From positions 2,267,543 to 2,331,542 of the forward strand of contig OU744452.1 of NCBI GenBank assembly GCA_916610825.1: DNA of 64,000 nucleotides. Reading direction: 5' to 3'. The notes beneath the pieces are model-generated. The model was given only the letters and a program-made list of their open reading frames with translations. It searched no databases and was not told the DNA's origin. Positions within the stretch are counted from its first letter, which is position 1. The number at the start of each line of letters is the position of its first letter. Source of the DNA: Haliclystus octoradiatus. Its lineage: Eukaryota; Cnidaria; Staurozoa; Stauromedusae; Haliclystidae. The translations under genes and the position numbers were made by a program. Of the stretch, positions 13,440 through 49,896 are shown piece after piece.

Positions 13440-14054
13440 TCCATCTTTGGTTTTGATATATTTTGATAGACTCATCTCAACGTAACTTACGTTATTTTAT
13501 GCTCAAGTAATTTGTTCGCAATTCTGCCTAAATTACTGATAGTATACAGTCACTTTATCATACTTGGAAACCCGTAGGGGTAACTCCCGTCTGACGGCTA
13601 TACGGGGACGTGCCACTTATTTTGGGTTCATATTTTCAGCTGAAAAAAACCTTTTGGGTATGAGATTTCAAATTTTGGAACTATTGGGTATGAGTTATCC
13701 TATTTTTGACTTTATCAAGAATTTTTGGAAACATTTTGCATCATTTTGTGTATTTACTTGAAATCAATCAATATGCTAGAAATTTTTGAGTAGTATTTTT
13801 CAAATTTTGGAATTTTTTGGGTAGCATCAACAGAATTTTTTTAACTTTTTGGGTGCTTCACCTTTTTCCAAAGTGGCACCCCCCTGTTCCTGAAAAACAG
13901 GAGTTACCCCCCCCCGTAGCTTGGAAGTTACTTACCCATAAAGGAGAGCGAAGATTTGACAATGAAAGTGGATGTGTTACGTCATCTAACATCAAAGTTG
14001 GGGATGAAATTTTAAGGGAATATTAATGATGTTAAAAGAAAAGTAAAAGCGATA
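13440..14054 (+). pseudogene. Broken copy of exon 1 of the LRR-ROC-COR-caspase gene
   Basis: 13440-13540 resembles the region just upstream of the intact gene (25240-25350). After a MITE (13571-13918), 13930-14054 matches the coding start of exon 1 (GERRFDNESGCVT, then SNIKVGDEI), with a ~66-nt segment missing relative to the intact copy. The match stops exactly at ATA (14052-14054), where the 11-kb transposon enters, and resumes at 25020. The copy reaches a stop soon after GDEILREY, so it is dead. It shows that the locus was duplicated in tandem before the transposon arrived. Confidence 0.85.
13571..13918. mobile_element. MITE with GGGGTAACTCC / GGAGTTACCCC ends
   Basis: Left CCCGTAGGGGTAACTCC and right GGAGTTACCC...CCGTA form short inverted ends, and CCCGTA on both outer sides may be the target duplication. 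It interrupts the broken exon-1 copy. The interior repeats the word TTTTGGGTATGA. No coding capacity. Confidence 0.6.
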
Positions 14055-25082: not shown

Positions 25083-25351
25083 TGAAATGAATTATTTAAG
25101 CATTGTTCAAGCATAGTTACGCAATACTTGCCATTTGGAATTATCTGGCTCTTTCCGGTCAGCGGTCTGGCCTTTTGCCTCGATTTGATTCTACCAACTT
25201 CTGTCAATCACGTGTTCACGCCCATGCTTAGAGAAAATGAAAATCAAGGCGGTTATTTCCCCATCTTTCATTTGGAGATATGTAGGTAGACTCTCGTAGC
25301 TTACGTTGTTATAGGTAAATTGTTCTCAATTGTGCCTAAATAACTGATACC
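25083..25351 (+). promoter_or_regulatory. Upstream region of the LRR-ROC-COR-caspase gene
   Basis: 270 bp before the start codon. The part from about 25235 is shared with 13410-13540 upstream of the broken copy. An in-frame TAA lies 15 nt before the ATG. No TATA box or splice acceptor could be assigned with confidence, so an upstream non-coding exon is possible. Confidence 0.4.
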
Positions 25352-26336
25352 ATGTTAACCCATGAAGGAAGACGAAGATTTGACAATGAAATTGGATGTG
25401 ATACGGCATTTATTCATTTGTGGAACTTGCTTCTCGATAAAGGAAAGCGAAGTTTTGATAATGAAAGTGGATGTGTTACGTTATTTCTTGGCAAAGAAGA
25501 TGGTTACTATATTTATCCTGTTATAATTGTCTTATCTAACATCAAAGTTGGGGATGAAATTTCAAGGAATTTTAATGATGTTAAAATAAATGTTAAAGCG
25601 ATACAATTTAAAAGAAATGAATACTTGTCGCAAACGCAAAAGTTGAACAAGAATTTTGCTGCTCGGCTTTGTTCGATATATTCGATTGAGTCGGATATAT
25701 CAAATACGGAACTTGTCATTGAGAATATGAAAAGTGTTATTTTTAATTTGGAATCACTGGAACATTTAGGTTTTATTAACTGTGGACTTAAAACACTCCC
25801 AAATGAGATTATCAATCTAACAAACTTACAAAGTCTTGATCTAAGTTATAACTCAATCAAAGAATTCCCAGATAATATATTAAACAATTTGATTCAGTTG
25901 ATACATTTAGATTTGAGCGGGAACAAATTGACGTCGTTTCCAGAAATTACAAATTGTGATATGAAATTGGAGAGAATTTATCTATCATACAACAGAATCA
26001 AAACATTACCTAATTCAATAACAAAATTAAAAGCGTTAAATGTATTAGATATTAATTACAACGGGCTGTTATCGTTACCAGATGACATTGGAAATCTTAT
26101 TGAGTTAAAGACATTACGTTGTTTTGATAATTCATTAACTTTTTTACCAGAAAGCATAACAGAATTGAAATCTTTAACTGTATTGAATATTAATAGAAAT
26201 CCTTTGCAAAAACCACCCTACGAAATATGTGAAAAAGGATTACATTCAATTGTTGGTTACTTTGAAGCGTTAAATAAATTTAATGGATTCCATAGCAACA
26301 GATCGAAATGTATTTTGATTGGGGAGTCGATGGCAG
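25352..26336 (+). CDS. Exon 1: N-terminal region, seven LRRs, first half of the P-loop
   Basis: ATG at 25352 is the first in-frame start after an upstream TAA. Residues 5-45 contain a doubled motif (GRRRFDNEIGCDTAF, GKRSFDNESGCVTLF). The LRRs follow the L..L.L..N.L..LP pattern of plant-type/MFHAS1-like repeats. The donor at 26337 (GTAAAT) splits the Gly codon of the P-loop. Confidence 0.87.
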
Positions 26337-29300
26337 GTAAATTGTTTGCTTTTAATTTATCTCTTGTTGTGATGTCTGATAGATTAGTTTAGTAATTTGT
26401 GAAGATTAATTTCGTTTTATAAGCTACGTATTTTCCAGTGTGTAAGTCGACACCTGTTTTTGGGCTCCATTTTCTAGGTTTTAAGGTATATTCTCTGTAT
26501 AAGCCGAATTTAAATCATAGTCATCATGTTCTGAATCGTTTTAATTTTGTTTATTTTCAATAATGTTTGTATAATCATTTTGGAACTTTACGGCTTTTCG
26601 ATCTTTTTCCTTTGTCTCAAGATCAACAAACAAGCGGTAAAATGTATTTTGTGAAACCAATGTCAAAACTAGTACTATATTCATGGATGATTTAGCCTTG
26701 ATATATCGGTCAGATCAGCTTCCAAGTAAATTAATTGGAAATATAATTCAAGATTTAGTATTGTAGTCCAAGATATTCTCTCCGTGTTTGTCGAGTTGTC
26801 AAGTCTTGCTCGCTTTATGTGTTGACCTTTTACACTTGAGCAAACAAAGAATTCAACGTAATTTGATCACATCAGCTTTGAATTACATTTACCATTCATT
26901 CATACAATTGTTTTGAAATCGCTTGTCTGAAAAATAGTTTTATTACTTTCAAAACAATACGGACAATTAATATGAACAATATAGGTTGTCCGTTATATAT
27001 AGGATTTAATTGTATTGTTGTCGTTTTTGTCTTTGATTTTGGGTACTAATTTGTAGACTCGGTGTATAAGTCGACCCCTTGATTTTAGCTTGAAAATTTG
27101 AGGCTAGAAAATCGACTTATACACCGGAAAATACGGTAGTTAGTTTGATTATTAATTGCAGGCTTCTTACTTCTTAATTGTAATCTATCTTATGCACAAT
27201 GGAGTGCTGAAAATTAGCTTCTTTTCAGAATTATTGTTTACAACAATTCAATACCTAGGTGTTGTTGTGTGCTTTCAAAATGACAATCTTATTGTAAGGT
27301 AACCCCTAGGTTATACGCCGTACTTTCGAGAGCCGTACCAACTTTTTTTGGTACGCCGTACCATTTCGACCAAACACAAAAAATTATAAAAGTGGGATTA
27401 TACGCCGATCCAAAAGTGGCGTCCCAGTTGATTTTTGTTTGAACTTTACCGCTTCCTGTGAGAAGAGCTGTGACATTCTGTTCTGAGAATCCGTAATAGA
27501 AAGACTTTTTAATTCAAAATCTGCAAAGTTTTTACTGCAAATTATTATTTGTCGACATACGCGTATTTACAAAACCACTAAAATATGTTTGGTTTACAAT
27601 CACGATGCTCAAGATTATATTTAAAGTGCTCAAAAACAATATATCATTGATAGATAGATTATTTGCTTTCGATAAAATCATGATAAAATATAAAAATGGC
27701 AAAGAATACACAAATGTGATCACAACAGTAGTTTATTCATTTATTTGAATTTAAAACGTAATACTACACCACCGCTATTGTTGTGATACGATTACTAACC
27801 ACGGTTACTTAGCAACAGGTAGGAAACAATAAGAAATTCATACAGAAACCCCCTGGAAATGACGAAAACATTCCAAATTCGAAATGGTACGCCTCACGAA
27901 AGTACGGCGTATATTCCAACTGCTTTTTCAGGCGTACCGGTACGGCTGTTTTCAGTTTGGTACGCCTGGATCAGCCGTACTTTCGATTTTGGGTCGACCC
28001 AAAAATTAATCGCCGTACTTTGCCAGATTATACGCCGTACTTTCAGGCGTGCCGATCCATTTTTGATGGATCGCCTCTCGAAAGTACGGCGTATAACCTA
28101 GGGGTAACTCTCCTTACTTTATTGTTAGCAGCTCATTTAATTTTAATGGTATCTTTTGGAATTTACTGTTGTTTGATTCAAATTTTCCAAATGTTGTATT
28201 TAATTTGATAAGTTTGATTAATAACGTTTTAATATGATGAACTACTACTTCTGACTGTATTATATCTCTATAGATCAGTATTTAAATTTTTATAATCCGT
28301 ATTACATCAGATCAGAATCCTATTCAGAGATCATTAGCTTATAACTTGAAACTGTTTAATTTTCTTAACTTGAAGTAGCTTCGTTGTTTGGATTATTTTT
28401 ACAGTTAAAATTATTGATTTATTCTACCACCTATATAATGCTTTACGCACCAATTCTAGAAACATAAAATATATTTGTGAACCACACCAGATTAATTGAT
28501 TTCCACAGTAATTCAATAGACATTGTTGTATGGTAGCTAACTTTATTGAAACCTAATCAACATTCCATTGCATAAACAATTCTGAATTCGTGGCTATAAT
28601 ATTAGTTCAGCTCTTTCCAAGAAGCATCAAATGAACTTTCACACCTTCAATCCACTTTTATCATTTGTTAGTGACATTAATTCAGTGAATTAAATTCACA
28701 CTGATTTCATAAGATTTTTAATTTAAGTCAAACAGTCTATGTTTAGTATGTTCCTGTTATTACTATTACTACTGTATCACCAGTGTCTGACAGAAGATTG
28801 AGCCTACGGAATATTAATACATTTTCTTTTAAAAATTATAAAATTATCCATTCTCTTTTGAATTTGTTCTAACATATTCACATTGGAAATATTTGACAGC
28901 TTCAGCACAGACACTTTATACATTGAAGTCTAAGTTAGCTCTTTCATGCAAAGAAGCGATCAGAGCTAACTAAACTAGAAACGGTTATCAAAAATATATT
29001 CAGAAATGAAGTTATGATTTTGCACGAGCGATGAGATCTTCAGAATGTAACACAACTATCATATTTATCATCCACAGCTTTGATTAAATATTTATGCAAA
29101 TTGAATTGAATGCCCAATATATTCATTCAAGCTGGAGTCAGAATATTTTTTCTAAAATTATCATTTTCAGCATTTTCACACAAAAATGTATGAATTGAGA
29201 AGGCTCTGACTGTGAAATGAATTATAAATTCATCTCTGGTGAGCTCCACAATAAAAGTTTGACCAAAACAAGAAACGGGAAAGTATTTATTGTATTCTTT

Positions 29301-32300
29301 ATGAAGATTTTATGTGAATTTCAAGTTGCCCGGAGAAACCTGCGGTTTTAGTTCTGTGGTGCTCAGTCTACTCCAAGTTATACGTGAGATAATGAGGGAA
29401 AATTTTAATTAGGGTTAACCTTTTTCAAAAACTGGTGGACAACCGGTTAACCGAAGAGAACAATAGAACAATAGAAAAATTGCGCTATTGATAACAATCC
29501 AAAACATTTATCAACATGAGTGCAAAAAGTAATATAAAAGTAATATAATACCAGTTGGATGAAGTTTAATAAGGAAATAAAATTACGATACAATAAAATA
29601 AAACATCAAATAATTATTCAAGTAAGGTACGGAATTCAAAATAAATTGAATTAAACAGCAATTACAGAAATAAGCATTTAAATAAATTAAAATTAAATTA
29701 ATTGTAGAAAACTAAAATGAGCACGTAACTAAAAGTTTATCAATATCATATTGTTTATTACTAATAATTAGTTACATCTTATTTTATTTAAAAATATAAG
29801 GCCATCAACAACGCTTGGTTTCAACGACGCTCGTTGCTTCCTAACAATAAGTCCTGCCTTGCTAAATATCTGTTCGCTCGGTACAGAAGTTGGTGGAGCT
29901 GCAAGAAGGCGTTTAGCTAATCTCTGTAACCGATTATATTTTTTTTATAATTCTCCTTCCACCATTCCAATGGATTTTCATTAATGTCAATGGGTGGCTC
30001 TAGCGAATACCTGAACACTTCTTCCTTTACGCTTTCATTTACATGACTCAAATTGGCTGACATCGCTTGTGATTGAGACGGCTGGAGAAGCATCTGGAAT
30101 GCCAATTGAGTTTTAGATTTCTTTTTCGACGATTCAATCGGAGCAGCATTGTTTCCATTAATCTCAACCACATCTCGTTCAGGTATTCCCTCAATCATTC
30201 TTAAAGCCAATTCAATAGTTTTGGTTCGTTGAGCAGTAGCCAAGAATGACAGATGTCTGAATCGCGGATCGACGAAAGATACTAGGACGTGAAACGGTAA
30301 TTCATCTGTTGTGTCGGTGTCTTCTTCATTCATGAACGTTATTATAGGTTGTTTGTTGCGGTCAAGTCTTGTTCCTTCGGTGAGGTCCACATTAAATCTT
30401 TCTTTTAATGATTTGACCAAGGCATCTCTGAATAATTGACCAGAACAGGCAGTGGCAGTTCTTCGTCTGGAATTGCTTCGTAGCTCAGTGAATGACATTT
30501 CCTTTAGTTGATGTAACAACCCAGTGATGGTAGGTAGAACAACTCCTGCTGTTGAGTAGCTTTGAGAGCTGAATAATACAGTTGCCAATTCTACCAGATG
30601 TAAAGAAGGAACGATCGTTGGAACAGTTGTTGTATGGCACTGCCGTTGATAGAATTGACCATTTGACGAAGAATGATTTTCCGTTATCTTTTAGTGACCA
30701 GATGTATTTAGACAACTCAGTGCGATTTTCATATTTTCTGTTGGTAAATGACGACTTATGTTTCGTAAAACGATCTTTGAATGCTCCTTCAGTAAGGCCG
30801 ATGTAGTTGTGGCCGTTTGCGTCCAGTGCTCAATGTTTGTTAAAATAGAGCATAATATAAAATTGAGACAAAGATGAGACAAAGCCTTCCCCCGTAACTC
30901 CAAGTTACACGTGTTTATTTCACGATCATCAGACGGTATACTAAAATATTAAAAAACATACTACTATACTCCTGTGAACATACATAAAGCGCAATATATG
31001 TCATTCTTCATGTCTAAGCTATTGGATCTCATAATTTGATTGAATTTTATCTCCTTGTTTATATTGTAGGAAAAACCAGTTTATGTAATGCATTGATTAA
31101 CTGCAAAGAAGAGAAAATTGATGATAAATGTAGAACGGAGGGAATCGATCTTCGCAAATGGAAAGTTAGACCTGAAATAGATGATTTGGAAGTTTTATTT
31201 GTTGACTGTGCAGGACAGAGAAAGTACATGATCACACACTCCTTCTTTATTTCACAAGGTGAGTAGCAAAGACTGGGAGGAGATAGATAATGCCATAATC
31301 AAATCTTCACTCTTTCATATTTGTTGTATCTCTAATATATTGTCATAGCATTACAAAGAGATCTATTGTATTCTGCATTCATGTAAATGAGTATGCCGTG
31401 CGGGAATATGTGAGCGTTGTGAGCGACGGATTTAGTTGTAGTGAATATAACATTTTGCTGCGTTGCATGGTTGTCTGATTGTTTGTGATTATTATGTCAC
31501 AGCATCTGTACCGTATATTATTGTTTTATTCCTGTAATAGATACCAATAATTAATCATGGACAGAAAAAAAAATACCAGATTGCAAATGTTTTCAATTGA
31601 AACTGTTTAGATCGTAATTCGTATCACATTGATGCGTTGCAAAACCCGGGTCTTTCTGTTGTCTAAACAGTGATTTATGGAAAACCCGTTTTTACAAAAG
31701 TCTACTTCCATTTCACGGCGATACGGCATGAAAATATTGGCAACCTCTTGGCTTCGTTTTAGGATAAAATACTATAGTTTATTAAAACTATTCAATGAAT
31801 CTGTATTTCCCAGATATAATCGTGAATAACATGTATTCAAAATGCATTATTTACAAAAGCAGTGTCAATTCACATGGAATTCAATTAGATCTGAATAACA
31901 AAAGTTAATTTGAATGATTTAAATAAAAAAAAACATATCGATCTGAAGCTACAGAATCAAAGAAGTATAAAAATCCAATTTCGACGAAAAACCGACAAGA
32001 AATAATGGAGTTACAGCGTTTTATTCAGACAGGATAGATAAATCTATCCTTATGTAAACTGATACCCAATCTAAACTTTTCGAAGGTGGACTTTTGAGAG
32101 ACTTTTGGAAACCCGGTTTTTTTCTCTCTTGTAAACTTGGCCATGTTATGGTGAACAATTCGGGGGGGTGTTGGAAGCCAACTAGCAACTAAAAACTAGA
32201 AGCTTGATCCATTTCAATGAAATCACTGCTTTTCATAGCTTATTGTGCAGGACTTGTCACAACATATAATCAACGATGCTCCCTTCATTATCACGGACAA

Positions 32301-35300: not shown

Positions 35301-38300
35301 CAAAATATAAGGAGATTTCTGTGAAGGCACCCTGGCCATTTTAAAATAACCTCCTTAATAACATAAAGGATAAAAGCCTGCCAAAGTCAAGGTTGCACGT
35401 TTTTGCTTACAATTTTATAAGGTACAATTATTACAATGTTTTCATGCTGGCTTTTTTTCATCATTTCAGAGCCGAAAAGCGTATGTTAATAAACAAAATA
35501 TGATATAAACTTGCCAATTTATTGATTATTCAGAATAAGGAACAAATATCAAATAAGCGGGAGGATTTTGCTGAAATCAGGAGGGCGGAAGAGTAGTCTT
35601 GAAATAGGGAGACTTTCGACAAAATCGAGAGGGTTGAGAGCTTTGTATATGGGAGCCATGTTTACAATCTAAAGGAATTAAGCATATACTAAAGACAGTT
35701 TGCCTTGACATATGTAAGGTGATGCTATAGAAAATCATTTATGGTCATTTAGACAGGTGATTGCTTTAGCAGGGTCGGCTGTAGTTGTGCGTCAATTGCT
35801 TTTGTTCAGATTAACTACGTGTAAGATTCATAGCAATACCATGATCTGCTCACTTTCATATTCAAAGGTTAGTCTACATTTACAGAACCATCTGTCTCAT
35901 AATATGTTAAATTAATTTCAAGGTTGTCTATTTCTTCTTGTATTGGATCTCTACAAATACGAAGTAACACCTGAATACTACCGAGAGAATGTTGGCAACT
36001 GGATGAGTGTAATATTGGCTCATGCACCAGATGCTACCATTCTCATTGTACCAACTCATTTGGATCTATGTAAAGATAAGGTTTCAATTAAGGAGAAGTG
36101 TAAGCATGTGATGCAAAATGTGTGGAAAGATGTTAATAAAAGAGAAAAGGATTTAGAAACAAGTCGCCTTGACAATATCCACGGTGATGATCAATCGTCC
36201 CGTGTAACTCATGTATCTGATAAATGGAAAAAACATATTAGTTCAGCACTACAACTTGGTGATGAGGTGAGTTGCAAAGACAGGACAACAGTTTTTTCTA
36301 ATGAGACTTGTGAGGCATATGTTGTATCTACATACCAGGCTATCATACCTCTTTCAGTAACAGAAATGGCAATCAAGCAATGATTTGTATGATTATTTAT
36401 TTGAATGTCAAGCAGCATTATTAAATCAATCACAGAACATAACATATCTTTTAAAAGTTGAAGTAACTTGAATACAATGTTTGCCGGTGTCTGTTACTTG
36501 CGTGTGTGCGTGCGTGCTTTGCGTTTTTCCAGGAAATACGTCATAATTTATCACCTTTTTGGCTTGCAATTCTTAGTGTCTTAGTGTATTCCAGACCGTG
36601 TTACAGACTTGATGAATTTAATAAGAGATCAAAAAGTAAAGCTATAACTAAGGATTTTCCATGAATTGTTGAACATGATTTGACAGAAAATCCATCACAT
36701 GAAATGAAAACGCAATTATTTGTAGGGGTTAGAAGGTTTTGAAATGTTGATCGGCCTTATCTATTAACAAGTCAGGACTAATTTCTACTACATTCTTTAT
36801 CATTTTAATTTAAAATTGGTGTAATATGTTAGTTGTTACTGTATATAAAACAGAAATATCATAAAACGTTATAGCTGTCATTAATATCATTAATTTTGGC
36901 TGTCGAATATTAAATGTTCAATAAATCATATTAGTGATAAATTAATCAAGTCTAGAGTAAAGTCCCCGTCAATTACAACATTAGAGCGACTGTAAAATTT
37001 AACCTTTTGATTGAACTTTTTTCATAACATCGAGACATCTAAAAATAGTAATACAAGAAGGTGATAAATTATGACGCATTTCCTGGAAAAGCACGCAACG
37101 CACATGCACACACACAAGTTACAGACACAGAATGTTTGCTACAAAACCTATGTAAATTGACTACAGTATGTTCATATCAATAAAATCAAGGAGAGAACTG
37201 GGGGTACTATTTTTACCTTTTCTAAGATATCTTTTCAGAAAAGTATTTATATCTCAAGATGTGTCAAAACATGTCATCTTGGTATAAATTTACCAATTGT
37301 ACCCACTTGAACCAACCACAATACCTTTTAATTATGTTTCAGTTAATGGTGTCTTCGGATTCAACTACAACTGTCTCAATCAAAATGATCCCAGTTTCTT
37401 CATTTGGTAAACTTGATGGTATTAGTGAATTGAGAAAAGAACTTATAAAAGTCCTTACCAATTCAGATGTGATGCCACTGGTCAGGAGAGAAGTACCAAC
37501 CGTTTACGCAGATCTAGAAGAGTATTGTGTCAATCAAAGAACGACTACCCCGGTGATCAAGTTAGATGTTTTTATTGAAACAGTCAAATTCAAATTTGGT
37601 ATGACTAAAGAAATGATAATCTCAGCTTTACAATACTTTGATACAATCGGATCTGTGTTGTACTTCAGCTATGGAACATTTAATCGTTTTGTTTTCTTGG
37701 ATCCAGAATGGTTTATTATTGTTTTGAAGAGAGTATTTAACCACAACGCTGATAATGTTATTGAATTTAAAGATGAATTTGTTGATCTGTATGATTTAGC
37801 ATTTGATGATTTTGTGCAACTCAAGGAAGAGCTACTAAAAAATGGAAGGCTAAGCATACAACTTCTGAGGTACTGATATTTCTGATACGTAATGAGCATG
37901 ATAGCAGATATTCAGTGTCACATAATGACCTTATGTTTTCAATTTTACAATTATTCCTTGTCGATATATATTCTTGCTTCATATTTCAATGGAATAGTTT
38001 CACTTTAAATAATCAAAGTATGAACATCATCAATAAAGTTCACAATTGACGTTGACCAGTTATGTTGGAAGAAGGTTGTGAAAGTTGACCGCCTGTTTTA
38101 AATATTGTTCAAGGGTCCTGTTTTTGTTGTTAACACATATGTAAGGCTGATAGTATATTAAAAGCTTTCAATGCTGTTTGACAAAAAGAGGGAGATACCC
38201 GGGGAGCCACATGGGTGGCTCCTTCTAGGGGTCTGGGGTTTGAAATTGCAATTGGCTCAAAGGCCTCTCCTGATCATTTTTAGAGCATTATTTGAAAAAA

Positions 38301-41300
38301 GTAGTAGGAATTTTCACAATGCAAGTTAGCGGAAGAAGGCCCTAAAAAGCTGGAGACTGCGGCTCAATGTAGGAAATTTGAAACTCTCTTATATCCTTCA
38401 AATCATCCAATACAAGATGGAATGGCGGAATTATTTGTTTGCTTCTGTCAGACTAAGCATAATGAAATTTCAAAATCTGAAGAAAGGAAACAACATAGAT
38501 TCCATCGATTCAAAATACCTCGAGTTTCGGAAAGGAAGAATATATTGAACATGCAGTGCATGTCATAATAGATTGATGATGATTAAAATGATTGATTTTG
38601 ATATTAATACTTGAATATCCAATTGACATACTAAATTGTGCATTTCAGATGTATTTGGTCAGACTATGTTGCAAATAATGATGACATGATGTACTTCCTC
38701 ATTGACATCCTTTGTCATTTCAATCTTGTAATTAATCTTGGAAAGCAAGAGGATTTATCTGATAGTACCTCATTGATTCTACTTGTTCCTTGGTTCTTTA
38801 AACCAGCACCAGAAGATGTTTTACACAAACTGAATAGGCAAGAGATTAAAGATAAGGATTGGGTAAGTAACATACCGCTCAGAACTCTGCCCATTTGATA
38901 CTTTCTTAAAGATGATACCGTAATCCAGCGCGTATAACTCGCACTTTAAAGTCAAAATTTTGTTCTTCAAAATCATGGTGCGACATACGTGCAAAACACA
39001 AAAAACATCAACAATTTTTCGAAATTTTTGTCCATTTTTCAATAACCTCTTTTCTTGTTTTTACAACGCATGCGTAGTAGGACATAGAAAACATGCTGGA
39101 ATCTTTTCACTTGTTTAGAAAGAAGTGAGACATCAAAAAACAACATATTAGTTCATTATAACCGTAAAGAAATTATGCAGTTCATTTGATTTGTTATCTA
39201 CTGAATTGTACAATATTGAGGAATAAAATGTTATTTAAAATGGCTGTTTTTAAAACTGGATTATTACTCTTTATTTTACTCTTTCTCTGGCGTTTATGGT
39301 TTTTAAAATTCATGATAAATTGGTTTTGATTTGTTTTTGTTGTTGTTGCTATGACTGTGGATTATTTCACAAAAACATTGACATATTTTCTTATCACATA
39401 CTAGTTTACTAGAAAGACCTGAAAATAATTTTCAAATTACAGTGATTTCTTCCATATTTTATGTTCAAATGATTCAAAAATCAAGATGCGACTTATACAC
39501 GCAAAATCAATAAATTCAACTTTTTTGCTTGAAAAATCACCCTGCGACTTATACTCGCGTGCGACTTATACACGCTGGATTACGGTAGATATAATGTTCT
39601 AAAATATCACAAATGTTTTCTGCGATCTGATCGGTCGAAAGAGCTAAACAAGGAAAAGTTGGGAGACAATCGGGAAGCTAAAAATCCCTCGTGATTTTTT
39701 AGCGCTTCACTCGTGTGAATTCGTGTCTCCCAACTTTTCCTGATTTATTCAAATATGAATACAAACATTTGCAAGTGTGTAATAACCCTTAATTAATGAC
39801 TGCTATAATATAAAGATATAATAGTCAATAATATGATTGTTGATGCTGTTACCCTAGCCCTTAATTGATAATTATTTGATGCATGATTGTTGATCAAATC
39901 GCATCTCGGATCTTAGGCTGTGATCGATCTCCAAAGTTTTTCAGAAAACTGTTAGGTATATATGTTGATCAACGTGTAAGTTTCATATTTGAGTATTCAA
40001 TTTATGCGTTACTTTGTAATTATACAATTATGTTTGAACTGGCAGTCGCGTATTATGCAAACATGCCCTGATGAATTTTATGTGTTGCCATTTCACGTTG
40101 TTTGGATATTTAAATGTACCGTGTATAGTATACATAACATTTTGTTTTTGCATTGGTTTGCAGGTTGAAATAACCGTTCAATTTAAATCCATCGTTTCTC
40201 CGTTCCCTGTTGGCTCATTTGAGCGTTTCATTCCTACTATTTTTCATGAGTTCGATCATTCTATTGCTTGGCAAGATACTTTCCTTGGAACTGGAGCCAA
40301 CTGCAAAGTATGTTGTACCATGGAAAGTGATGGGCGTTGTGGCAAATTAATTTTAAGAGGAAGATGTCTCCAGGAAGATATTGATGACCTGTGGAAGTCA
40401 TTAATACGAATCTTCAAGGTTCAATTTTTAGGATTATTATTTCAATATTCTACATATAATAATAATAGCCATCTTATTCAATACTTATCCATCCATTTCG
40501 ATTACTTTAGATTGCAGATGATTTTTTTGTGTGTCTACCTGGTCTTGGTTGCATTAAACGACAATCATTATGCCCAAGTTGTGTTAAAAAATCCATTGTT
40601 GATCCATACAAATTCAATATCTCATCTTGGCATGATTATAAATGCAAGACAAGTATGTTATTATGTGGGAAAGAAAATTCACTGATACCAATCAATTTGA
40701 TACTACCACCAAAAGGTAAAACAAACTTCAACATGTCAGAAACTAATTTTTAACCTGTTGTAATTATACTTTGTTTGCTAGTGTATTATTCTATTCTATT
40801 TCGTTTCTTTTCCTCTGATGATGTTGAGATTATATTAAAGCAAAAACAGAACAGATACTTTAATGCATATAATTACAGTTCTGTATTCTTAATATCCCCC
40901 CTCTGGTATGGATGAAAAGTGTCGTATGACAATGATTAAAGATATTCATGAGTCAATGAGTACAACGCGAGATCCAACATAATCTAATCTTATTAATAAA
41001 GAACATCTACTTTTATAGTCTACATCAAAACGAGGTTAATATAAAGAGGTTATATATACAGGAATAACAATTACGTAATACGACAACTTCCCTTTATCTA
41101 AATTAAAGCAAATATTGTTATTACTGATGTTGTCTTTTTACCAAATTAATTAATTAATTAATCTATTTTATTTATTAACTATAACCAAAACGATTTGGTT
41201 GACGAACAATTCTTGATGAACGCCGTATTGACATATGTGGTGAAGATATGTTTGAATCAGCTGGTTGAACTGCTGATGATGATGTTGTATCGGGTGTGGG

Positions 41301-44300
41301 GCTAGTCCTACTTGTTTGTTCTAAATTGCAGTCTACAGGGGCATTGCCAATTTGATTGTTCGAAGCTAATACTGTTCTCTCCCCCAATTTTAACCACGCT
41401 GTGTTTGATCCTTTTGCAACAACAAATGCAGCTTTCCGAGAGGGTGTGGAATTTGTTGGCTTATACATTACAATGTCTCCGGGTACATGATCGGAAACAA
41501 AAGGGACTCTGAGATTTCTCCCCATAAAAAATTTGTGCAGGTGATTCTCCGCGAGCATTCGAAGTAGTTCTGTGTACCAGCAAAATCTTGTTTAGAAACA
41601 TATCGAAAGAAACGCGCATATTGCGATGCCAAGCTTTCATGGCACGCTTCACTGTTTGGACCGACCGCTCTGCAAGGCCGTTAGCGCGAGGGAAATAGGC
41701 GGGTGATTCAGATTTGTAGCAACCAGATTTGGCTAGCCATGAAACAATAGCGTCATTGACGAATTCTTGCGCATTATCGGAAACTAAGTGTTTTGCGACA
41801 CCGAAACGGGCAAAAAGTGATGAAAATATTCGAATAATATTTGGAGTGGATCGGTCTGGACATCGGAAAGCTTCAATCCAGCCGCTACCAGCATCAACAA
41901 TCATTAAAACATTTCCGATATCTGGGACATGGCCGAAATCCATATGTAATCTTTCCCAAGGGTCAGCTTTTGGCCATTCATGTACTGATTTAGCAGTCTT
42001 AGGGCGCAAAGTACATCACTGTTCACAAGAAGATACATAGCGGTCTATGTCACGAGCCATGCCTGGCCACCAAGCACTCTTTGAGAGAAAGCGCTGGGTT
42101 GCATTTATACCTTGGTTGGTAGAATGTGCTTTTTCGAGAATTGAACGGCGGAGCGATGCAGGAATAAAAGCAATAGAACCGAAATAGATAACGTCGTTAT
42201 GTATAGTTAAATTTTGGTTCAAACGCGCAAACGGACGCTCAGCTTCACTGGGATTGGCCCAATTGCCCGAAATAATACGCCCTTTTAGAGATTGTGCGAT
42301 GACATCAAGGTGAGTAGCATTTTTTAAATCGGAAAAAGCAATAACTGGCTGAAGAAAAGCCTCGTCACAGCTACGTGTGACTTCGACAGCAGCAACAATG
42401 TCTTCGCGGGAAAGGATGGAAGACACTGAAAGGCGAGATAATGCATCAGCATGACAGATTTCAGTTCCGGGCCTGTGTTGAATATTAAAATCAAACGCCA
42501 TTAATTTTATGGCCCACCGACTGATTCGTGCCGAAGCAGTTTTTTGGATTGGTTGATCAGCACCAAATAATTGGATCAAAGCCTTGTGATCCGTGATAAG
42601 TGTGAAATGACGACCTAAGAGCAGTTGACGCAGCCTTTCTACACACCAAACAATACCGAGACCTTCCCTTTCAGTTGCAGAGTATTTTTTTTTCAGCTGG
42701 AGTAAGGGATTTTGAAATAAAAATAACAGGTTGGCCATCCTGTGTGAGGACACCAGCAATACAATGGTCTGATGCGTCAGTGGTCAATGTCGCTTCTTTT
42801 AGCAACGAATATGGTTGAACAAGTGGTTTACTTGAAAGTTCAGATTTGAGATTTTCAAACGAACGAGCACAATCATTATTCCATTCAAAAGCGGTTTCTT
42901 TTTTGCGTAATAAATTTAGCGGTTTTATTTTGTCTGCAAAGTTTGGTATGAAACGCCCAAAAAAATTCACCAAACCAACAAATGACTCAATTTCTTTTTT
43001 ATTTTGAGGAGGACGCATGCTGTTAATTTTATTGACAAGGCGATCATCTGGTTGAATACCAGAAGCTGATATGCAATAGCCCAAAAACGAAACTTCAGAA
43101 ACACGCTGCGTGGATTTTTCCATATTTGTTTAAAGATTCTTCAGTAGTGGCATAAATAAGGACATCATCCTGATAAGCAATTGTGCCCTTTAAACCTTGC
43201 AGGACATCTTCAATTACATGTTGAAAAATAGCCGAACTGTTGCGCATGCCCATTTGTAAGCGGGTTACGCTATAAAGGCCTTTACTAGTGTTGATAATAG
43301 ATAATTTTCGCGCGTTATCGTCGAGAATTACTTGCCAATAGGCGGATTGCAAATCAATTTTCGCGAAGAAACGTGCACCATCCATTTTTGCAAAAATTGT
43401 TTCAGAATTCGATAGAGGGTAATCATCGAACAAGATTTTGCTGTTTACATGGACACTAAAGTCTGCGCACATTCGTAATCCACCCAATTTTTTTTTTATC
43501 CAAACAACAGGAGATGCATTTTCTGCCCCGCCCGATTCAATCGGCTCAATAACCCCCATCCTCTCTAGCCGAGTTAGCTCTAGGTCTACATTTTCTTCTT
43601 TTTATAACAGCACTGTTCAAGGTGCCCACGTTTGTTGCAATAACCACATCTATTGTTGAAAGCCGGACAAGCACGCGGAGGGTGTGTCCCATCACAGAAT
43701 TTGCATTTATGACTGTTTGAAGCTTTGTTGGTTGAGCTTTTAACATAATTAACAACCACTTTTCCTTCATTAGGTAATGTCGTTCGTTGTAGAAATGTCT
43801 GCGTCATATCGTAGAGGCGGACACGTTCTCTTAAATCCTCAAAAGTAGCCGTTGGCATTAGTCGTATATAATCCAGCAACTCTCTGGTGACTTTGACATC
43901 GTTGGAGCAGTTTATAAAAACCAATTTCTTTAACTCTTCTGATGGGTCCAATGTTTCTTTGAACCGTGAAAAGTCGCATCTTTCACTTTGATAATTGATT
44001 CTAGTGTAGACATCTTCTACTGACTCATCTGGCAATTGTCGTATTGCTAAAAATGTAGTGCGTTCAGCAATCAAAAAACGCTCTTTTGGCTCTATGTATT
44101 TACAAGCGATAGCATAAATGTCAGCAAATGGCATTTGTTCAAGCTTCTTTGGTGTAACCAATCTCGACAATGTGATATATGATGTCTCTCCACACATTTC
44201 TATGAACATATCAGTTTGCTCTAAATACCCGTCTTTGGAAAGATCACCATCTTCAAGATGATCTTGACGGCATTTAGCATTAAACAAAGCAAACCAAGCG

Positions 44301-47300
44301 TTTGCTTTCTCGACATCATCTAAGACTAAAATTCTTTTTCGGTCCATCGCGATGTCAGCGAAGATTCTTTGTACTTTATAACTCGCAGCGCCAATTTGTC
44401 GTATGACAATGATTAAAGATATGCATGAGTCAATGAGTACAACGCGAGATCCAACATAATCTAATCTACTTTTATAGTCTACATCAAAACGAGGTTAATA
44501 TAAAAAGGTTATATATACAGGAATAACAATTACGTAATACGACAAAAAGCAGGACATTAAGCGAGGTAGGAATATGATAGTTGATATGGAGAATTAAAAC
44601 TAGAGATCAGTTTCATGTGGGGATATTAAGCAACTAGGTGGGACATTAAAAGAGAGGATATTAACCGAGTTTCACTGAATATATATTAATGCTTTACAAG
44701 GTGTAATGATTACAGTAGTCATTTATTGCTGTTTTTCAGATCTGTTTGAACAGAGCCAAAGTGGAAAGGAGTTAGACATTCTACTATCAACTTCTAAAGG
44801 TATGATATTTTAAGGATTCATACATATCTGTATAGGATATTAGATTAGAAACAGAAAGTCATCGTGTCTGCAAAAAATTTACGTTATTAGCTCAATGACA
44901 CTTGTATGAGCTAAGATACCAAATTCCTGTCTGACACCTCTCAATTGAAATAATTTTGAGCCATTCAGCAGCATTCTCATGAAGGACTATCTCCCATAGT
45001 CGTCTTATTAGGCCATATTCCCAGTAGGTGAAAATTTTGAAAGGCCTGGGAAAAGAAACCAAGGAGACTAGTGCAGCTAGACAGTAATCATAAACAGTGT
45101 TTGAAAACAATCAAACCAATCAATCAAAGTGCAGGATCATGACGCAATATTTTATAAAATATTATATCATACTAAGATTGTGTTAATCTGAATCATTCTC
45201 TTATGCTTAGATCAAATTGAATCAATTAAAGACAGAAGTCATGAAGATGAAGAAAAAATACCTGTTGAAAAATGTGAGTCAATAATAATCTTGAAATCGA
45301 TAGACCTGTGTATATTAGGTTTTGGTTCAAATTAGGAATAACTGATGTTTAGTCATACAGATCTTGAAATTCAACATACATACATGTATCTCATTCTGTT
45401 GCATTGGGGACATTAAAAAAACATTTTCTACATTGTATTTAAGTTTAAAATTCAACATAATTTTGACTGATGGTAATCGTCCGTTAGTTGAAACATAACA
45501 TTCCGTGAGCTACAATGCAACAAGAGAGACTAGATCAATAGCCATGAATTCTTAACTTTTAAAAAATTGCAATGAAAACTTTATTCTACTTACAGTAACA
45601 ATTATTCATGACTCACAAGACACTCCAATAATGTTCTCATTAATTATATTATAAGTTAAAAAGTAACAAATTTTTACAAATATATATACTAAAAGATAAC
45701 AATAGACTAAATATTATAAATACCGGTAACTTAAACATTAGGGACCTACTCGAGTCTTGCTGTGTATTCAGAAAGGGTTTGATTTCTTTTATGTATAGCA
45801 TCTCATACACTAAACGATCCCTTTTTGATTGATTGAAAATTTTTGGTTCTTTTTTAACTTGAAAATGGCAGAAGTTGAATCTAGCCGAAACGTTGTTGAA
45901 AATAATAATAAAATTTCATAATTGTTGCTATTAATTTTTTCATTGAAAGTAATAAGTAAACGACATCTTATATACAAATACCTTGAATCATAAATTTTAA
46001 TCATTAAGACAACGTTAAATCCTGATTCAGATAAAGTAAACAAGGATTATAGTTGGTATGCATTGGTGGTGGCTCTCAAAATTGTATGTTAGCGATTACG
46101 TTACACATCTTTTTTTCTAGTTTACCCGATGACAAGTGATCCACGTGGCCTATGTGTTATTATAAACAATGTTGAATTTAACAAAGGAACGGAACTGGAT
46201 GACCGGAAAGGCAGTGACGTAGACGTGGAGAGACTAGAAGAGACGTTTGAAAAGCTGAAATTTCATGTATCTATACATCGCAATCTGAAAGCCCTTGATA
46301 TCATTGATTTGGCAACAGAGATAGGATCACAGGATCATACTAAATACGATTGTTTTGTCATGTGCATTCTCTCGCATGGTGATAAAAATGTTGTTTGTGG
46401 AGTTGATGGTATAACAGTCGCAATTGATGACATAAGGATGAAGTTCGATGGAATTCGTTGCCCATCCTTATTAGGAAAGCCAAAGTTTTTCATTATTCAA
46501 GCATGCCAAGGATCAAAATACACCAGGCGTGTAACAAGTGATGGCCCATCAGAAGTAAATAGTGATACGGTATCACAAATGAATGTTTATTCAGATGGCA
46601 AATCTGCAAGAATTATTGATAACGACGACACAGACTGGTTAGTGTGGGTCGCTGCAACACCAGGTATGTCATAACATCTTCATAATATTTATAAACAAGT
46701 ATGATAAGACATTGTGAGTATTCAAACGATAATAATATCAACGGAATTAAGACGCGGCTTAATTTTTCATGAACCTGTGTTGCCTTGTGGGACTTGGATG
46801 AAAAGGCGATCAGTATCTGTTTAGTATAGCAGACTTAAAAGTCAATTCTGTGACAAGGAAAAGACGATTATATTATGCCCTTCAGGTGTTGATGATTCAA
46901 CTATGACTAGCTCATAAAATGACAATAACATTTCAAGCATTACCATTTCACAAAATGATAATGAACTTTCAGGCAATTTCATATTCATTAACCGGTTCGT
47001 AAACAAGTTCAATGAAGTTTTCATGAACTTATGGATTTTTTTCACAAGGTAAGGCTGACCTTACAGTAGAGGTCAGCAGAGCGACATTGATACTCGGCTT
47101 CTACATTAACATGTAACCAATCCACTTGCATTGGGTAGCTCAATGGGGTTGAATTCAGCTTCAAAAATGGATTATTTACATTATCATTTTGTTGACAATT
47201 CCCTATAATAGCAACACACATAATGGCCGTTGGTAAACCAATCAAAGTTTTCAAACGTCAGTGCCGTATCTGGTTGTTGTAAACTGTGTTAACATGTAGC

Positions 47301-49896
47301 CAATCAACTCTGGAGCGCTATCTGTAATTCCTTTGATAATATTTGTAAAATGATCATGGATGTGCTGAACATATCTTTTCTGTCTGGGTTATTTATGCAG
47401 TCTGGCTGTGAGTAATACCAATATCACACCCGTATTCCTTAAATATATATTGCGGCTATGTTACTATGTCTGTGCTAGTTATTTTAGATGAGCTTTTTGG
47501 ATTCTTACTACATCACCAGTTCAATTAAAAGTACACATGACACGGAAAAGTGTTATCACAGATTCGAGTAACTGAAGCTAAATGATGAAGAATGATGGCA
47601 ATGATTTCTTAGTTTGAATGCGTATAAGCGGAGATATTGAATGTTAAATCTACCCTATTATCAATCAGTCACTTTTTCCAAACACGGAACGACAGTCGGA
47701 ATGACAAGAGGGCTTACTGTAGAAAAAAGGTGAAGTTATCATTATCAAAAATCGTATCTCCTTTCTTGCGAAATCAAAATTCTCTAACATCCAAGTCTGA
47801 AGAATTCACACATTTTTGATGTGTGGGAAACAAAGGATTTTGGGTTTCTGAAAAATCATCCATCAAATTTCGCCTAATCCATCAACTGCATGTGTATTTC
47901 TGTTCTTTGTCATTACATACAACAAGTGCTTTCAACATTTCAGCCGTGTCTTCTTCATCTTCTTCGAGTGTAATAAATATGAATACAAACATTTGCAAGA
48001 GTGTGATAACCATTTAAAACTCAATTTCAATTCAATATTTTTACTTACTTGTTTCCTCGTATTGAATGAAAACATCACAATGCTACCCTTACTCAAATGG
48101 AGACAGCATTTGTGGATATTGTAGCTTCCTATTCTTCTTCAGCATTGAACAAAACATTATCGTCAAATGTTGTCAGGAATTTTTAAAAGTGTTCAACCTA
48201 GGAGATTCAAACACATGGACCAACCAACCAAATTGCAGGATTACTTTTGATTATGACGTCATATTTTAGAACACTAGTTTATGATTAGTCCATTCATAAA
48301 TCATAACCTTGCTAGTCTGTGAACTGGAAAGTTAGTAATAGTTTATAATTAGTTCATGAAGTGCTCACTTAATGATCATAAACTTATTTATTAATAGTTC
48401 ATGAACAGGACTATCAGTATTAGGTACTAATTACTTCATGAAGATGTTCACTAATATATTATAAAGTGTTTATGTAACAACCTATATACAGGCGACTATG
48501 AGATAAGATGGGAACGGACTGTAGAGATCCCGCAATCCTGAATAGCTGATTGGTATATTTGATTATGGTAATTGTGAGCCGTTTTACTATAACGATAATA
48601 CAAATCGGAACACACTCACCGAACTAACGAAGTATAAGAAACTCCGGAGTTGATTGATCAATGTCGAATACCATTGAAGAGACACACCAAATTCAGTAAT
48701 GACGCGTCTTTATATTTTCTCCAATGTATTTCATGAATATTCGGTAAAATTGAATACAATGGACTAAAACTTGTAATAATGATAATATAATCTGATCAAC
48801 TATATAACTGTGATCAATTTGAAAACTCTAAACAACAACTGGTAAATAGTACATTTACATGAACCTTTATAGTATTTTCTAGGTTACATTGCAAAAAGTG
48901 GTGCAATATTAATTTTGATTACATAAACATTAATATTGCTGAATCATACACTAATTTGTTTCTCTAATTACTTTTACTTTATATTTAACTAATAATATAC
49001 GATTTATTCTAGTTTATGACGTTTATGATATGTATAATGATTACGTTATCTTGAAATGGAGGCTACTGGTAAATGTTCTATTGTAAGCGTATGTCGCCAA
49101 CAATAGTTGATTTATAGTTCATGAACTGGACTATCAGTATTAGGTAATAATTAGTTCTTGAACTTGTTCCTTAATATATGATGAACTGTTTATTTATAGT
49201 TCATGAACTGGACTATCTGTATTAATTCATAATTAGCTCATGAACTTGTTCACTAATAGATGATAACTGTTTATTTATAGTTCATGAACGGGACTATCTG
49301 TGTTAGTAAATAATTAGCTCATGAGCTTGTTCAGTAATAGATTATAAACTGTTTATTTATAGTTCATGAACTGGACCAATATTAATAGTTCATGATCAAT
49401 CAAATAGTTTTTGGACTAGAAAAGATATATTTAACATTCTTCCAGTTCATGAAGTAGTTCCATAAATTTTCGTACTATTTCATGTTTGCAAACTGCTTCT
49501 GAAGTTTCTCAGGGGTAACCGTAGATTTATTTGATGCAAGCTTTAAACAATAAAAATGTTCTTAAAACAGGGATACAGATATCATGAAACTTTATCATAA
49601 TATTCTTCTTTATAGGTAAAATGTCATGGAGAGATGAAAATGCTGGCACTTGGTTTATATTTGACGTGTGTAACTTTCTTAATGAATATGCAGCAGAGTT
49701 TCCTGTATCAGGGATATTCACATTGATGAATGACAATGTGTCAAAACGTGAAGACAAAGCAGAAATTAAAACAAAACAAAATACATATGTAGAAGTGGAT
49801 GCATATGTGAATTATAAAAGGATAGACTCTTTGAGACGCAAATGGTACCTTGCAGGCAATGAAACTAAAGGTAGAAAAAGGAAGCTATCTGATTAA
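25352..49896 (+). CDS. LRR-ROC-COR-caspase fusion protein, 11 exons, ~1221 aa
   Basis: Exons 25352-26336, 31070-31258, 35923-36266, 37343-37869, 38649-38862, 40164-40418, 40511-40715, 44740-44799, 45211-45273, 46121-46663 and 49616-49896 all have GT-AG borders and join in frame (3666 nt including the stop). Domains: seven LRRs (residues ~134-297); a ROC GTPase with P-loop GESMAGKT (324-331), RTEGID (350-355), DCAGQ (374-378) and THLD (436-439); COR (~540-905); a 41-residue hinge; a caspase (~949-1221) with His1033 in SHGD, Cys1076 in QACQG, and a p10 part SWRDENAGTWFI. The caspase resembles caspase-8 (YPM..DPRG start, QACQG). No death-fold prodomain is seen. Inferred role: an intracellular sensor whose GTPase/COR dimerisation triggers caspase activation. 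The N-terminus upstream of 25352 is uncertain. Confidence 0.87.
26424..27139. mobile_element. MITE with CTACSGTATTTTCC...GTGTAAGTCGA ends
   Basis: Left CTACGTATTTTCCAGTGTG and right ...TATACACCGGAAAATACGGTAG are inverted ends of about 28 bp, 716 bp apart, in intron 1. Flanks are compatible with a TA target. No coding. Confidence 0.7.
27299..28107. mobile_element. Palindromic MITE rich in AAGTACGGCGTATA
   Basis: Left ACCCCTAGGTTATACGCCGT and its complement ending near 28105 form TIRs of at least 30 bp. Both arms hold further copies of GTACGGCGTA, GGTACGCC and related words, so short open frames at 27859-28208 are by-products of the repeats. It lies in intron 1. Confidence 0.75.
28108..29767. 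other. Intron 1 sequence, nothing recognised
   Basis: AT-rich, no repeats or coding exons identified. Confidence 0.4.
29768..30588 (-). pseudogene. hAT-family transposase, C-terminal part
   Basis: The - strand encodes an acidic-to-basic helical region ending NENPLEWWKENYKK. After a one-base slip in an A-run near 29940 comes LAAPPTSVPSEQIFSKAG...LKPSVVDGLIFLN, the hAT dimerisation domain. The DDE catalytic region and N-terminal BED finger are missing. It is a relic in intron 1, antisense to the gene. Confidence 0.85.
30595..30817 (-). pseudogene. GIY-YIG endonuclease domain fragment (Penelope-like or related retroelement)
   Basis: The - strand reads HNYIGLTEGAFKDRFTKHKS and ELSKYIWSLKDNGKSFFVKWSI. 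This YIG...F..R...H...F...........ELS.YIW.LK pattern is that of GIY-YIG domains at the end of Penelope-like and some other RT elements. It directly abuts the hAT relic, so one was inserted into or joined to the other. Fragment only. Confidence 0.72.
31070..31258 (+). CDS. Exon 2: ROC domain, P-loop end to switch II
   Basis: Acceptor ATTGTAG, donor GTGAGT. Encodes GKTSLCNALI, the RTEGID switch I region and VDCAGQRKY switch II. Phase 1 on both sides. Confidence 0.9.
31259..35922. other. Intron 2, with a long inverted repeat
   Basis: 4.66 kb. The middle (32330-33760) is a long palindromic structure listed separately. A (TTGA)n-like stretch lies near 34567-34612, and a GACAGGTGATTGCTTTAGCAG word near 35750 is related to the repeat at 1035-1250. 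The rest shows nothing. Confidence 0.5.
32330..33760. repeat. Long imperfect inverted repeat in intron 2
   Basis: Left-arm words such as GTGGGTCTTAACAGC, GGCGGCTTTTTAGGGATTGC, CTAGCATGCAAGC and GCGTCTAATAGATAT recur inverted in the right arm (33400-33730). Arms are about 400-600 bp around a spacer near 32750-33130. It may be a foldback transposon. No coding. Confidence 0.65.
35923..36266 (+). CDS. Exon 3: ROC domain, second half
   Basis: Acceptor TTTCAAG, donor GTGAGT. Encodes LFLLVLDLYKYE, the ATILIVPTHLDLCKDK base-recognition region (THxD in place of NKxD, usual in ROC domains) and a charged helix. Ends in phase 0. Confidence 0.9.
36470..37140. mobile_element. MITE-like inverted repeat in intron 3
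   Basis: GTGTCTGTTACTTG...GTGCGTGC and TTTCCAGGAAATACGTCATA on the left recur inverted as TATGACGCATTTCCTGGAAA and CAAGTTACAGACAC on the right. TIRs are ~80 bp with a GT/GC-rich run. No coding. Confidence 0.65.
37343..37869 (+). CDS. Exon 4: COR domain, first part
   Basis: Acceptor TGTTTCAG, donor GTACTG. Contains the GISELRKELIKVLTNSD helix that follows ROC and the COR-type segment MTKEMIISALQYFDTIGSVL...FLDPEWFIIVLKRVF, the short-circuited winged-helix-like part of COR. Confidence 0.88.
38649..38862 (+). CDS. Exon 5: COR domain, middle
   Basis: Acceptor CATTTCAG, donor GTAAGT. Encodes FLIDILCHFNLVINLG...LILLVPWFFKP, the 'phenotype then final answer' segment conserved in ROCO proteins. Confidence 0.88.
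38916..39587. mobile_element. MITE with TACCGTAATCCAGCG ends
   Basis: Left TACCGTAATCCAGCGCGTAT and right ...ACACGCTGGATTACGGTA are inverted ends; flanks fit a TA target. Subterminal words GCGACTTATAC repeat near the right end. A partial copy lies at 61564-61608. It lies in intron 5. Confidence 0.75.
40164..40418 (+). CDS. Exon 6: COR domain, C-terminal half
   Basis: Acceptor GGTTTGCAG, donor GTTCAA. Encodes VEITVQFKSIVSPFPVGSFE followed by RFIPTIF, a typical COR strand-helix, and an amphipathic end. Phase 0 on both sides. Confidence 0.86.
40511..40715 (+). CDS. Exon 7: COR end, Cys-rich segment
   Basis: Acceptor TACTTTAG, donor GTAAAA. The AG at 40510 is preferred over that at 40517 because only it keeps the frame. 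It encodes IADDFFVCLPGLGCIKRQSL and then CPSCVKK, with four Cys that could bind metal (C..LGC, CPSC). Ends in phase 1. Confidence 0.8.
40920..41085 (-). repeat. 3' LTR of the compact LTR element
   Basis: 166 bp, TGTCGTAT...ATACGACA. It has an extra ~18 bp (near 40990) compared with the other LTR. Confidence 0.92.
41175..43559 (-). pseudogene. pol of the compact LTR element (RT, RNase H, integrase), frameshifted
   Basis: From the right: RT (GVIEPIESGGAENASPVVW, FFAKIDLQSAYWQV, the catalytic box AYQDDVLIYA near 43165), a frameshift near 43120, the FLGYCIS and FVGLVNFFGRF thumb, RNase H (TTDASDHCIAGVL; a slip in a T-run near 42690; LITDHKALIQLFG; HADALSRLS), the integrase zinc finger (CWWPG-like), a stop near 42015, the core (MIVDAGSGWIEAF, SDNAQEFVNDA, PRANGLAERSVQT), a frameshift near 41530, and a basic tail. 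Not functional. Confidence 0.9.
43586..44347 (-). pseudogene. gag of the compact LTR element
   Basis: 253 open codons. The capsid-like region includes FLAIRQLPDESVEDVYTRIN, followed by two zinc knuckles (CKFCDGTHPPRAC and CGYCNKRGHLEQCC). It is open and could still be translated, but the frame ends directly after the knuckles because the DNA joins mid-RT sequence there. Confidence 0.85.
44397..44544 (-). repeat. 5' LTR of the compact LTR element
   Basis: 148 bp. The adjoining sequence on the - strand (TTGGCGCTGCGAG, 44382-44394) is the likely primer binding site. Confidence 0.92.
44740..44799 (+). CDS. Exon 8: hinge exon, 20 codons
   Basis: Acceptor GTTTTTCAG, donor GTATGA. Encodes DLFEQSQSGKELDILLSTSK. 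Phase 1 on both sides, so it can be skipped without changing the frame. Confidence 0.75.
45211..45273 (+). CDS. Exon 9: hinge exon, 21 codons
   Basis: Acceptor ATGCTTAG, donor GTGAGT. Acidic, encodes DQIESIKDRSHEDEEKIPVE. Phase 1 on both sides. A diverged copy with its intron borders is at 61937-61999, which independently supports it as a real exon. Confidence 0.82.
46121..46663 (+). CDS. Exon 10: caspase p20 subunit
   Basis: Acceptor TTTTCTAG, donor GTATGT. Starts YPMTSDPRGLCVIINNVEF, then DDRKGSDVD (substrate-binding Arg), CFVMCILSHGD (His1033) and FFIIQACQGS (Cys1076). The p20/p10 linker region has several Asp (IIDNDDTD, residues 1112-1119) that could be processing sites. Confidence 0.93.
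46664..49615. other. Intron 10, with palindromic repeat clusters
   Basis: 2.95 kb between the two caspase exons. 48280-49460 holds TTCATGAAC repeats (separate entry). A short stretch near 47965-48005 (AATATGAATACAAACATTTG) is also present near 39755. No other exon is seen. Confidence 0.5.
48280..49460. repeat. TTCATGAAC palindrome repeats, ~70-bp tandem units
   Basis: Units such as TATAGTTCATGAACTGGAC followed by a TAATTAGCTCATGAAC word recur about every 70 bp at 49110-49380, with scattered relatives at 48285-48470. They share the palindrome with 7430-7780. Confidence 0.65.
49616..49896 (+). CDS. Exon 11: caspase p10 subunit and stop
   Basis: Acceptor TTTATAG. Encodes KMSWRDENAGTWFIFDVCNF (p10 with substrate-pocket S-W-R), LTLMNDNVS-like segments and a basic tail GRKRKLSD, which could act as a nuclear targeting signal. 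The stop taa is at 49894-49896. Confidence 0.92.

Follow-up and report, generated by a model that had tools for sequence, protein, structure and literature searches.

A gene of eleven exons in the genome of Haliclystus octoradiatus most probably (we would put it at roughly 0.7) belongs to a tandem staurozoan family of single-chain receptor-proteases, in which sensor, switch and caspase follow one another in one polypeptide and whose function, as we infer it, would probably be immune. The gene was analyzed in a stretch of 64,000 nucleotides (C8:2267543-2331542, where C8 is contig OU744452.1; here called "the window"). Contig C8 fits chromosome 7 of this species, and contig C4, which enters the argument below, fits its chromosome 3 (PMC9975415); RNA-seq exists for the animal as ERR9434978 (PMC9975415).

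Gene structure and encoded domains

Re-cut from the sequence, the exons (Table 1) join to 3666 nt encoding 1221 amino acids with no internal stops, and all of the introns are bounded by GT...AG, so that the eleven exons, canonical splice sites and unbroken frame of an earlier, sequence-only reading are confirmed. The domain order in this one frame is LRR, ROC, COR, hinge and caspase. A Pfam search, which that reading had proposed, finds all four of the families concerned: LRR_8 (best stretch 157-216), Roc (319-439, E 2.1e-13, 51 bits) and COR-A (558-718, E 9.1e-10, 39 bits), the latter two above their Pfam cut-offs, and Peptidase_C14 (956-1184, E 1.2e-44), which covers model positions 1-220 of 233 and spans exons 10 and 11. 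Every LRR of the gene lies inside exon 1, and amino acids 1-~130 match no Pfam family. A structure prediction of exon 1 alone had a mean pLDDT of 37.5 and was discarded.

Table 1. Features of the gene and its intron 7 element, numbered from the first nucleotide of the window
Feature	Position	Strand	Evidence
5' untranslated stretch, contiguous with exon 1	25256..25351	+	retrocopy L017 aligns unbroken, window 25256 to 26341
Exon 1: N-terminal region (aa 1-~130), LRRs, first part of ROC P-loop	25352..26336	+	re-cut, Pfam
Exon 2: ROC, end of P-loop and DCAGQ	31070..31258	+	re-cut, Pfam, motif positions
Exon 3: ROC (THLD) and ROC-COR linker	35923..36266	+	re-cut, motif positions
Exon 4: start of COR; COR-A 558-718 begins here	37343..37869	+	re-cut, Pfam, genome search
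Exon 5: COR	38649..38862	+	re-cut
Exon 6: COR	40164..40418	+	re-cut
Exon 7: end of COR, Cys-rich (CPSC), terminates in PPK with D next across the junction	40511..40715	+	re-cut, ORFs, genome search
Gypsy-like retroelement ORFs in intron 7, between COR and hinge exons	41175..44494	-	ORFs; class by eye from motifs
Exon 8: hinge, 60 nt, phase 1-1	44740..44799	+	re-cut, retrocopy, paralogs
Exon 9: hinge, 63 nt, phase 1-1	45211..45273	+	re-cut, retrocopy, paralogs
Exon 10: caspase large subunit, His1033, Cys1076, start of inter-subunit region	46121..46663	+	re-cut, Pfam, motif positions, genome search
Exon 11: caspase small subunit, SWR (Arg1134), stop codon	49616..49896	+	re-cut, motif positions, paralogs

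The GTPase motifs (P-loop GESMAGKT at 324-331, DCAGQ at 374-378 and THLD at 436-439) and the caspase dyad (His1033 in SHG and Cys1076 in QACQG) stand exactly where the earlier reading had placed them. By its ROC-then-COR tandem the gene is a ROCO, with GTP binding and hydrolysis predicted from the motifs, and by its SHG/QACxG dyad and its two subunits it is also a caspase (C14A), with predicted cleavage at aspartate. Arg976, Gln1074 and Arg1134 lie by position at the places of the S1-pocket Arg/Gln/Arg, and we take them to be the residues that would recognize the aspartate site. The top-scoring solved caspase by sequence, among the best 60 of 540 matches, is caspase-8. No DED, CARD or Death domain is matched in the full protein, N-terminus and hinge included, at E values up to 1 in Pfam, which rules out an initiator caspase of the DED/CARD kind. 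Protein kinase is absent among 16 Pfam families at E up to 1, which places the gene outside the LRRK/DAPK subfamily, and NACHT and NB-ARC have no Pfam match at the same limit, so it is not an NLR; its nucleotide switch is ROC. The MFHAS1 type (LRR-ROC-COR with a bare C-terminus) likewise fails, given Peptidase_C14 at 956-1184.

The region is dense in mobile elements. Window ORFs at 2274-5608 (+), 8918-11070 (-), 29917-30690 (-) and 51325-52925 (-) resemble, by eye, retroelement polyproteins, a hAT-like transposase in intron 1 and a Helitron-type helicase, and near-identical ORFs in opposite orientation at 16786-17205 and 24446-24865 form the arms of an inverted repeat, spaced by about 7 kb. 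Neither Rfam nor tRNA scanning of the 64,000-nt window gave a hit. The mitochondrial cox1 gene of the animal reads under code 4, as is expected for a cnidarian, with TGA as Trp and AGA at the conserved Arg of TDRNFNT.

The tandem family and the joint between COR and caspase

Whole-genome searches find exon 4 at 36 places, exon 7 at 34 and exon 10 at 25. Eighteen of the exon-10 places are preceded on the same strand, within 33 kb, by both an exon-4 and an exon-7 match, with units disqualified if a further exon 10 or an exon 4 on the opposite strand came in between; the eighteen comprise 17 places on C8 (window included) and one retrocopy. The 16 COR-then-caspase places that C8 holds besides the window keep order and strand, and two of them have an incomplete caspase exon (one reaches 25 residues, the other 83). 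Exon-10 places with no COR partner are one on C8 and six on other contigs. The former (G000:C8:7966187-7966681, minus strand) is a caspase exon that resembles exon 10 at 63%, the next same-strand exon 4 being 164 kb off, and is either a standalone gene or a broken unit. A caspase is present downstream at 18 of the 36 exon-4 places (the retrocopy among them), and at the other 18 none occurs before the next exon 4 and within 40 kb, so the fusion marks only part of the ROCO set. The DNA pattern for QACQG occurs in 10 C8 units, window included; it is also matched at G000:C10:9054110-9054131 (minus strand), on a contig with no caspase exon at E 0.001.

Six paralogs (U2, U3, U4, U5, U8 and U13) were read from exon 2 onward, U13 from exon 3. 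With splice sites hand-chosen among the candidate sites, all six contain exons 2-11 (3-11 in U13) in order, with splice sites and phases conserved and no internal stops; exon 8 was not found in U2, U3 and U5, which leaves the frame unaffected. SHG and QACQG are present in all six as well as in the window gene, and U4 also scores above the Pfam cut-offs for ROC and COR (39.1 and 41.6 bits). No exon 1 turned up in the stretch fetched for U5, and the reading of U4 combines two stretches separated by 16.5 kb.

Might the ROCO and the caspase be two adjacent genes that were duplicated together, with the joined frame an artefact of the choice of exons? Such an arrangement would suit the length of intron 7 (4 kb, with a retroelement inside), the ROCO places that lack a downstream caspase, and exon 7 itself, whose frame, when unspliced, stays open to a stop at 40753 (an isoform without the caspase, made by reading through exon 7, is possible). 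The decisive evidence against it is a processed, intronless retrocopy on another chromosome (G000:C4:10863754-10866615, minus strand), which aligns with nt 7-3386 of the window CDS at 93.4% identity over 3381 columns, 22 of them gap columns. At all nine junctions from exon 1/exon 2 to exon 9/exon 10 the flanking coding bases are adjacent in the retrocopy, and at those that matter most here (7/8, 8/9 and 9/10), where the introns are removed exactly, the 30 alignment columns around the junction show 30, 30 and 28 identities. Since nine introns are absent from it, the spliced mRNA of a close paralog joined LRR, ROC, COR, hinge and the large subunit of the caspase. In addition, hinge exon 9 with matching phase is present in all six of the paralogs read (exon 8 in three of the six), and 17 of the 18 exon-10 matches on C8 are preceded by a same-strand COR within 33 kb. 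We therefore reject the two-gene model, to which we give almost no credence; it was the very case that the sequence-only reading had named as its refutation, and the spliced-out junctions of exons 1-10 answer it.

The source of the retrocopy was a paralog and not the window gene itself. Its upstream match starts at window position 25256, inside the 5' untranslated stretch, and it ends at the exon 10/11 boundary, so that for the joining of exon 11 the evidence is the splice sites and open frames of the six paralogs. It is damaged by two TGA stops and by frame-breaking gaps; its uninterrupted frame of 1046 amino acids still matches Peptidase_C14 (E 1.8e-30), and its COR-A score of 34.2 bits is just below the cut-off of 35.3. 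Directly after the end of exon 10 this COR-caspase frame (L017:1244-4381, minus strand, of G000:C4) continues without a shift into a tyrosine recombinase (Phage_integrase E 0.00026, which falls below the family cut-off), as though splicing had attached a recombinase exon to exon 10 before the copy was made. Two short stretches of the window outside the gene, 13436-14054 and 61935-61985, match exons 1 and 9 of the retrocopy, and are probably relics of neighbouring copies. Taken together, the open frame, the Pfam matches, the retrocopy and the paralogs support the earlier claim that one gene would encode a ROC-COR covalently joined to a caspase with its dyad intact.

Probable exchange among copies, and variation of the LRRs

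The ROC-COR regions of the genes are of two types, A (the window gene and U13) and B (U2, U3, U4, U5 and U8). Between the window gene and the B genes this region is 45-47% identical and synonymous sites are saturated or nearly so. In the computable A-B pairs dN/dS is 0.14-0.16; judged by these ratios, ROC-COR is under purifying selection between the types. Other parts of the same genes tell a different tale. Ahead of the LRRs, over 116-117 codons of exon 1, A and B genes are separated by a dS of only 0.01-0.06, and the caspase of the window gene is closer to those of B genes U4 and U8 (91% identity, dS 0.12) than to that of A gene U13 (76%, dS 0.34). Intron 7 with its retroelement aligns with that of U13 mainly in two blocks, of 96.8 and 97.3% identity, so the Gypsy-like element common to these two genes was inserted before that duplication or conversion. 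Most of intron 10, on the other hand, finds its 97% match in U8 and U4; U13 matches it only in pieces, the long ones at 66-80%. These discordant dS values and intron identities indicate that sensor exon and caspase exons have probably been swapped from one tandem copy to another, around a switch core that is old.

The caspase parts evolve rapidly, with dN/dS of 0.40-0.61 in 19 of 21 comparisons, which is high for a strongly constrained enzyme and is what one might see if the caspase were catalytically poor, or a non-proteolytic scaffold or decoy after the manner of c-FLIP. Such a loss of activity seems to us very improbable, as His, Cys and the residues at the presumed S1-pocket positions (Arg976, Gln1074 and Arg1134) are all present, and SHG and QACQG are unbroken in all seven genes read. 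It does have a cnidarian parallel in the inactive caspase domains of Acropora, among the copies in coral caspase-X (PMC4715348).

The sensor part varies both in length and in sequence. By a simple pattern, nine exon 1s contain between 6 and at least 27 LRR-like matches each. For a comparison of near-identical units, 34 double repeats were cut, 4 were dropped for their register or their residue at position 17 (the window gene's sole double repeat among them), and the 30 distinct ones left were compared; they come from 8 exon 1s, 10 of them from a single gene, and repeats within a gene are not independent. Across these 30 repeats pN is 0.339 at the ten x positions of LxxLxLxxN and 0.049 at the 29 others, a contrast that was reached in none of 20000 random position sets. 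The corresponding dN/dS values are 2.13 and 0.55; the pN/pS contrast taken by itself lacked significance, since 5026 of 20000 shuffled position sets gave values as high. Amino-acid change is thus focused on the exposed positions of the LRRs in a family whose repeat number also varies. Lamprey VLRs likewise vary in LRR number and in the concave-face residues of near-identical repeats, and they are extracellular and somatically assembled from cassettes. In the one assembly of H. octoradiatus analyzed, the diversity seen is among germline genes, and the resemblance is one of likeness, not of common descent.

A tandem family with a diversifying LRR face favours an immune role. The same features could belong to a real fusion that is no pathogen sensor and that serves allorecognition, symbiont control or developmental cell death, its LRR diversity being used for self/non-self or cell identity; allorecognition genes also show diversifying repeats and tandem arrays. 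We consider this unlikely, in part because a death protease as output suits infection control. LRR-ROCOs with selection on the concave face have also been read as immune in brown algae (PMC11378527). Neither point is decisive.

Relation to known proteins, and a proposed mechanism

The ROC-COR tandem is common to the window gene, MFHAS1/MASL1, LRRK1/2 and DAPK1, and LRRs are found in MFHAS1 and LRRK as well. LRRK and DAPK1 carry kinases, and we know of no caspase in any of these proteins. MFHAS1 has just LRR and RocCOR (PMC6337361), in agreement with the earlier statement that nothing else is attached to it, and in Trichoplax there are ROCOs that carry CARD and Death domains (PMC4104024). When residues 315-760 were searched against a set of 5.8 billion proteins, one of 3882 candidates matched at E 0.01; this nearest ROCO found, EukProt P0007, is an LRR-ROC-COR-Death protein of animal type that is 30% identical to the window protein over 828 columns, from the LRRs to the end of COR. 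Its alignment runs to window residue 910, just beyond the PPKD (904-907) at the exon 7/8 junction, and its Death domain (its residues 933-1002) lies where the window gene has hinge and caspase. The caspase thus stands where the relative has its adaptor domain, and this placement suggests that covalent fusion has taken over from a recruitment step, which would bypass the adaptor. Among proteins of about 0.55-1.75 times 1221 amino acids in the same set, residues 500-1221 matched none of 7449 candidates at E 1e-3; the method requires exact 5-mers, and its negatives are weak. With the caspase alone as query, 6 of 250 candidates matched; two or more of these are named as animal caspases, so animals are represented in the set.

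Among systems in print, the nearest precedents are two. The first is the predicted LRR-caspase hybrid genes of amphioxus, where TNFR-caspase hybrids are predicted too (PMC2575513); as in the window gene, a sensor domain is set directly on a caspase with QACXG, and a shortcut from recognition to apoptosis has been proposed. They differ in that the words "ROC" and "GTPase" are absent from the text of that paper, and no tandem family with diversifying LRR faces is apparent in its available portions. The second is the LRR-ROCO candidate immune receptors of brown algae (PMC11378527), which also form expanded families, have 4 to 49 LRRs and show positive selection on the concave side. Each of their LRRs has its own exon, and these exons are shuffled, unlike the H. 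octoradiatus gene with all of its LRRs in exon 1, which therefore is not a shuffled-exon ROCO of that sort. In brown-algal group 3 and in some further SAR ROCOs the protein ends with a peptidase domain of another kind, IPR009003, and the word "Caspase" is absent from the text of that report, which figures forty animal ROCO architectures (PMC11378527). In oysters, the DSRM-caspases also have a ligand-binding domain in the caspase prodomain and were proposed to be viral detectors, but the domain is two dsRNA-binding motifs, two genes are reported, and "LRR" and "leucine" are absent from the text (PMC7836458). Acropora has double-caspase proteins (PMC4715348).

Among the best-ranked 17-20 papers of each of our literature searches, which drew mostly on open-access journals, no ROC-COR joined to a caspase was found, and the available portions of PMC8195603, PMC3196919 and PMC2246300 hold nothing on a ROC-caspase joint. 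The combination is therefore likely absent from print, and the sequence-only reading's view that no such family had been described should be toned down in view of the amphioxus hybrids and the SAR ROCOs with a peptidase.

We envisage that the LRR horseshoe would bind a ligand, most likely microbial or viral, that its recognition would change the state of ROC-COR, and that the caspase domains on their hinges would then be paired or released. Two caspase domains could meet across the hinge, which is 21-44 residues long, and each would cleave itself at an aspartate within the inter-subunit linker; the active caspase would then cut cell substrates, so that the cell would die or signal inflammation with no need of DED/CARD adaptors. 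The sequence-only reading had proposed that nucleotide would drive COR to dimerise. In bacteria, however, the homologue CtRoco is a monomer when GTP-bound (PMC11052575), so activation could be by release as well as by pairing, and complexes of human MASL1 are altered by GTP (PMC3995007). Types A and B may be separate dimerisation classes. More tentatively, and with rather less confidence than we give to the family itself, we suggest that staurozoans may have a recognition system that is intracellular and diversified in the germline, with a caspase of its own in every receptor. It would be a single-chain inflammasome with a ROC GTPase in place of the NACHT ATPase, in which the old A and B ROC-COR cores have been kept apart and sensor and caspase exons re-dealt among tandem copies.

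If the LRR pattern holds in populations, the family would be an animal counterpart to the brown-algal ROCOs diversified on the concave LRR face. The question of how a ROCO switch acts on its output becomes directly testable here, as the output is a caspase that can be read with a simple substrate. Such a receptor would connect recognition with cell death in a way that is new for animals and needs no death-fold adaptors, in a class of cnidarians that has received little study.
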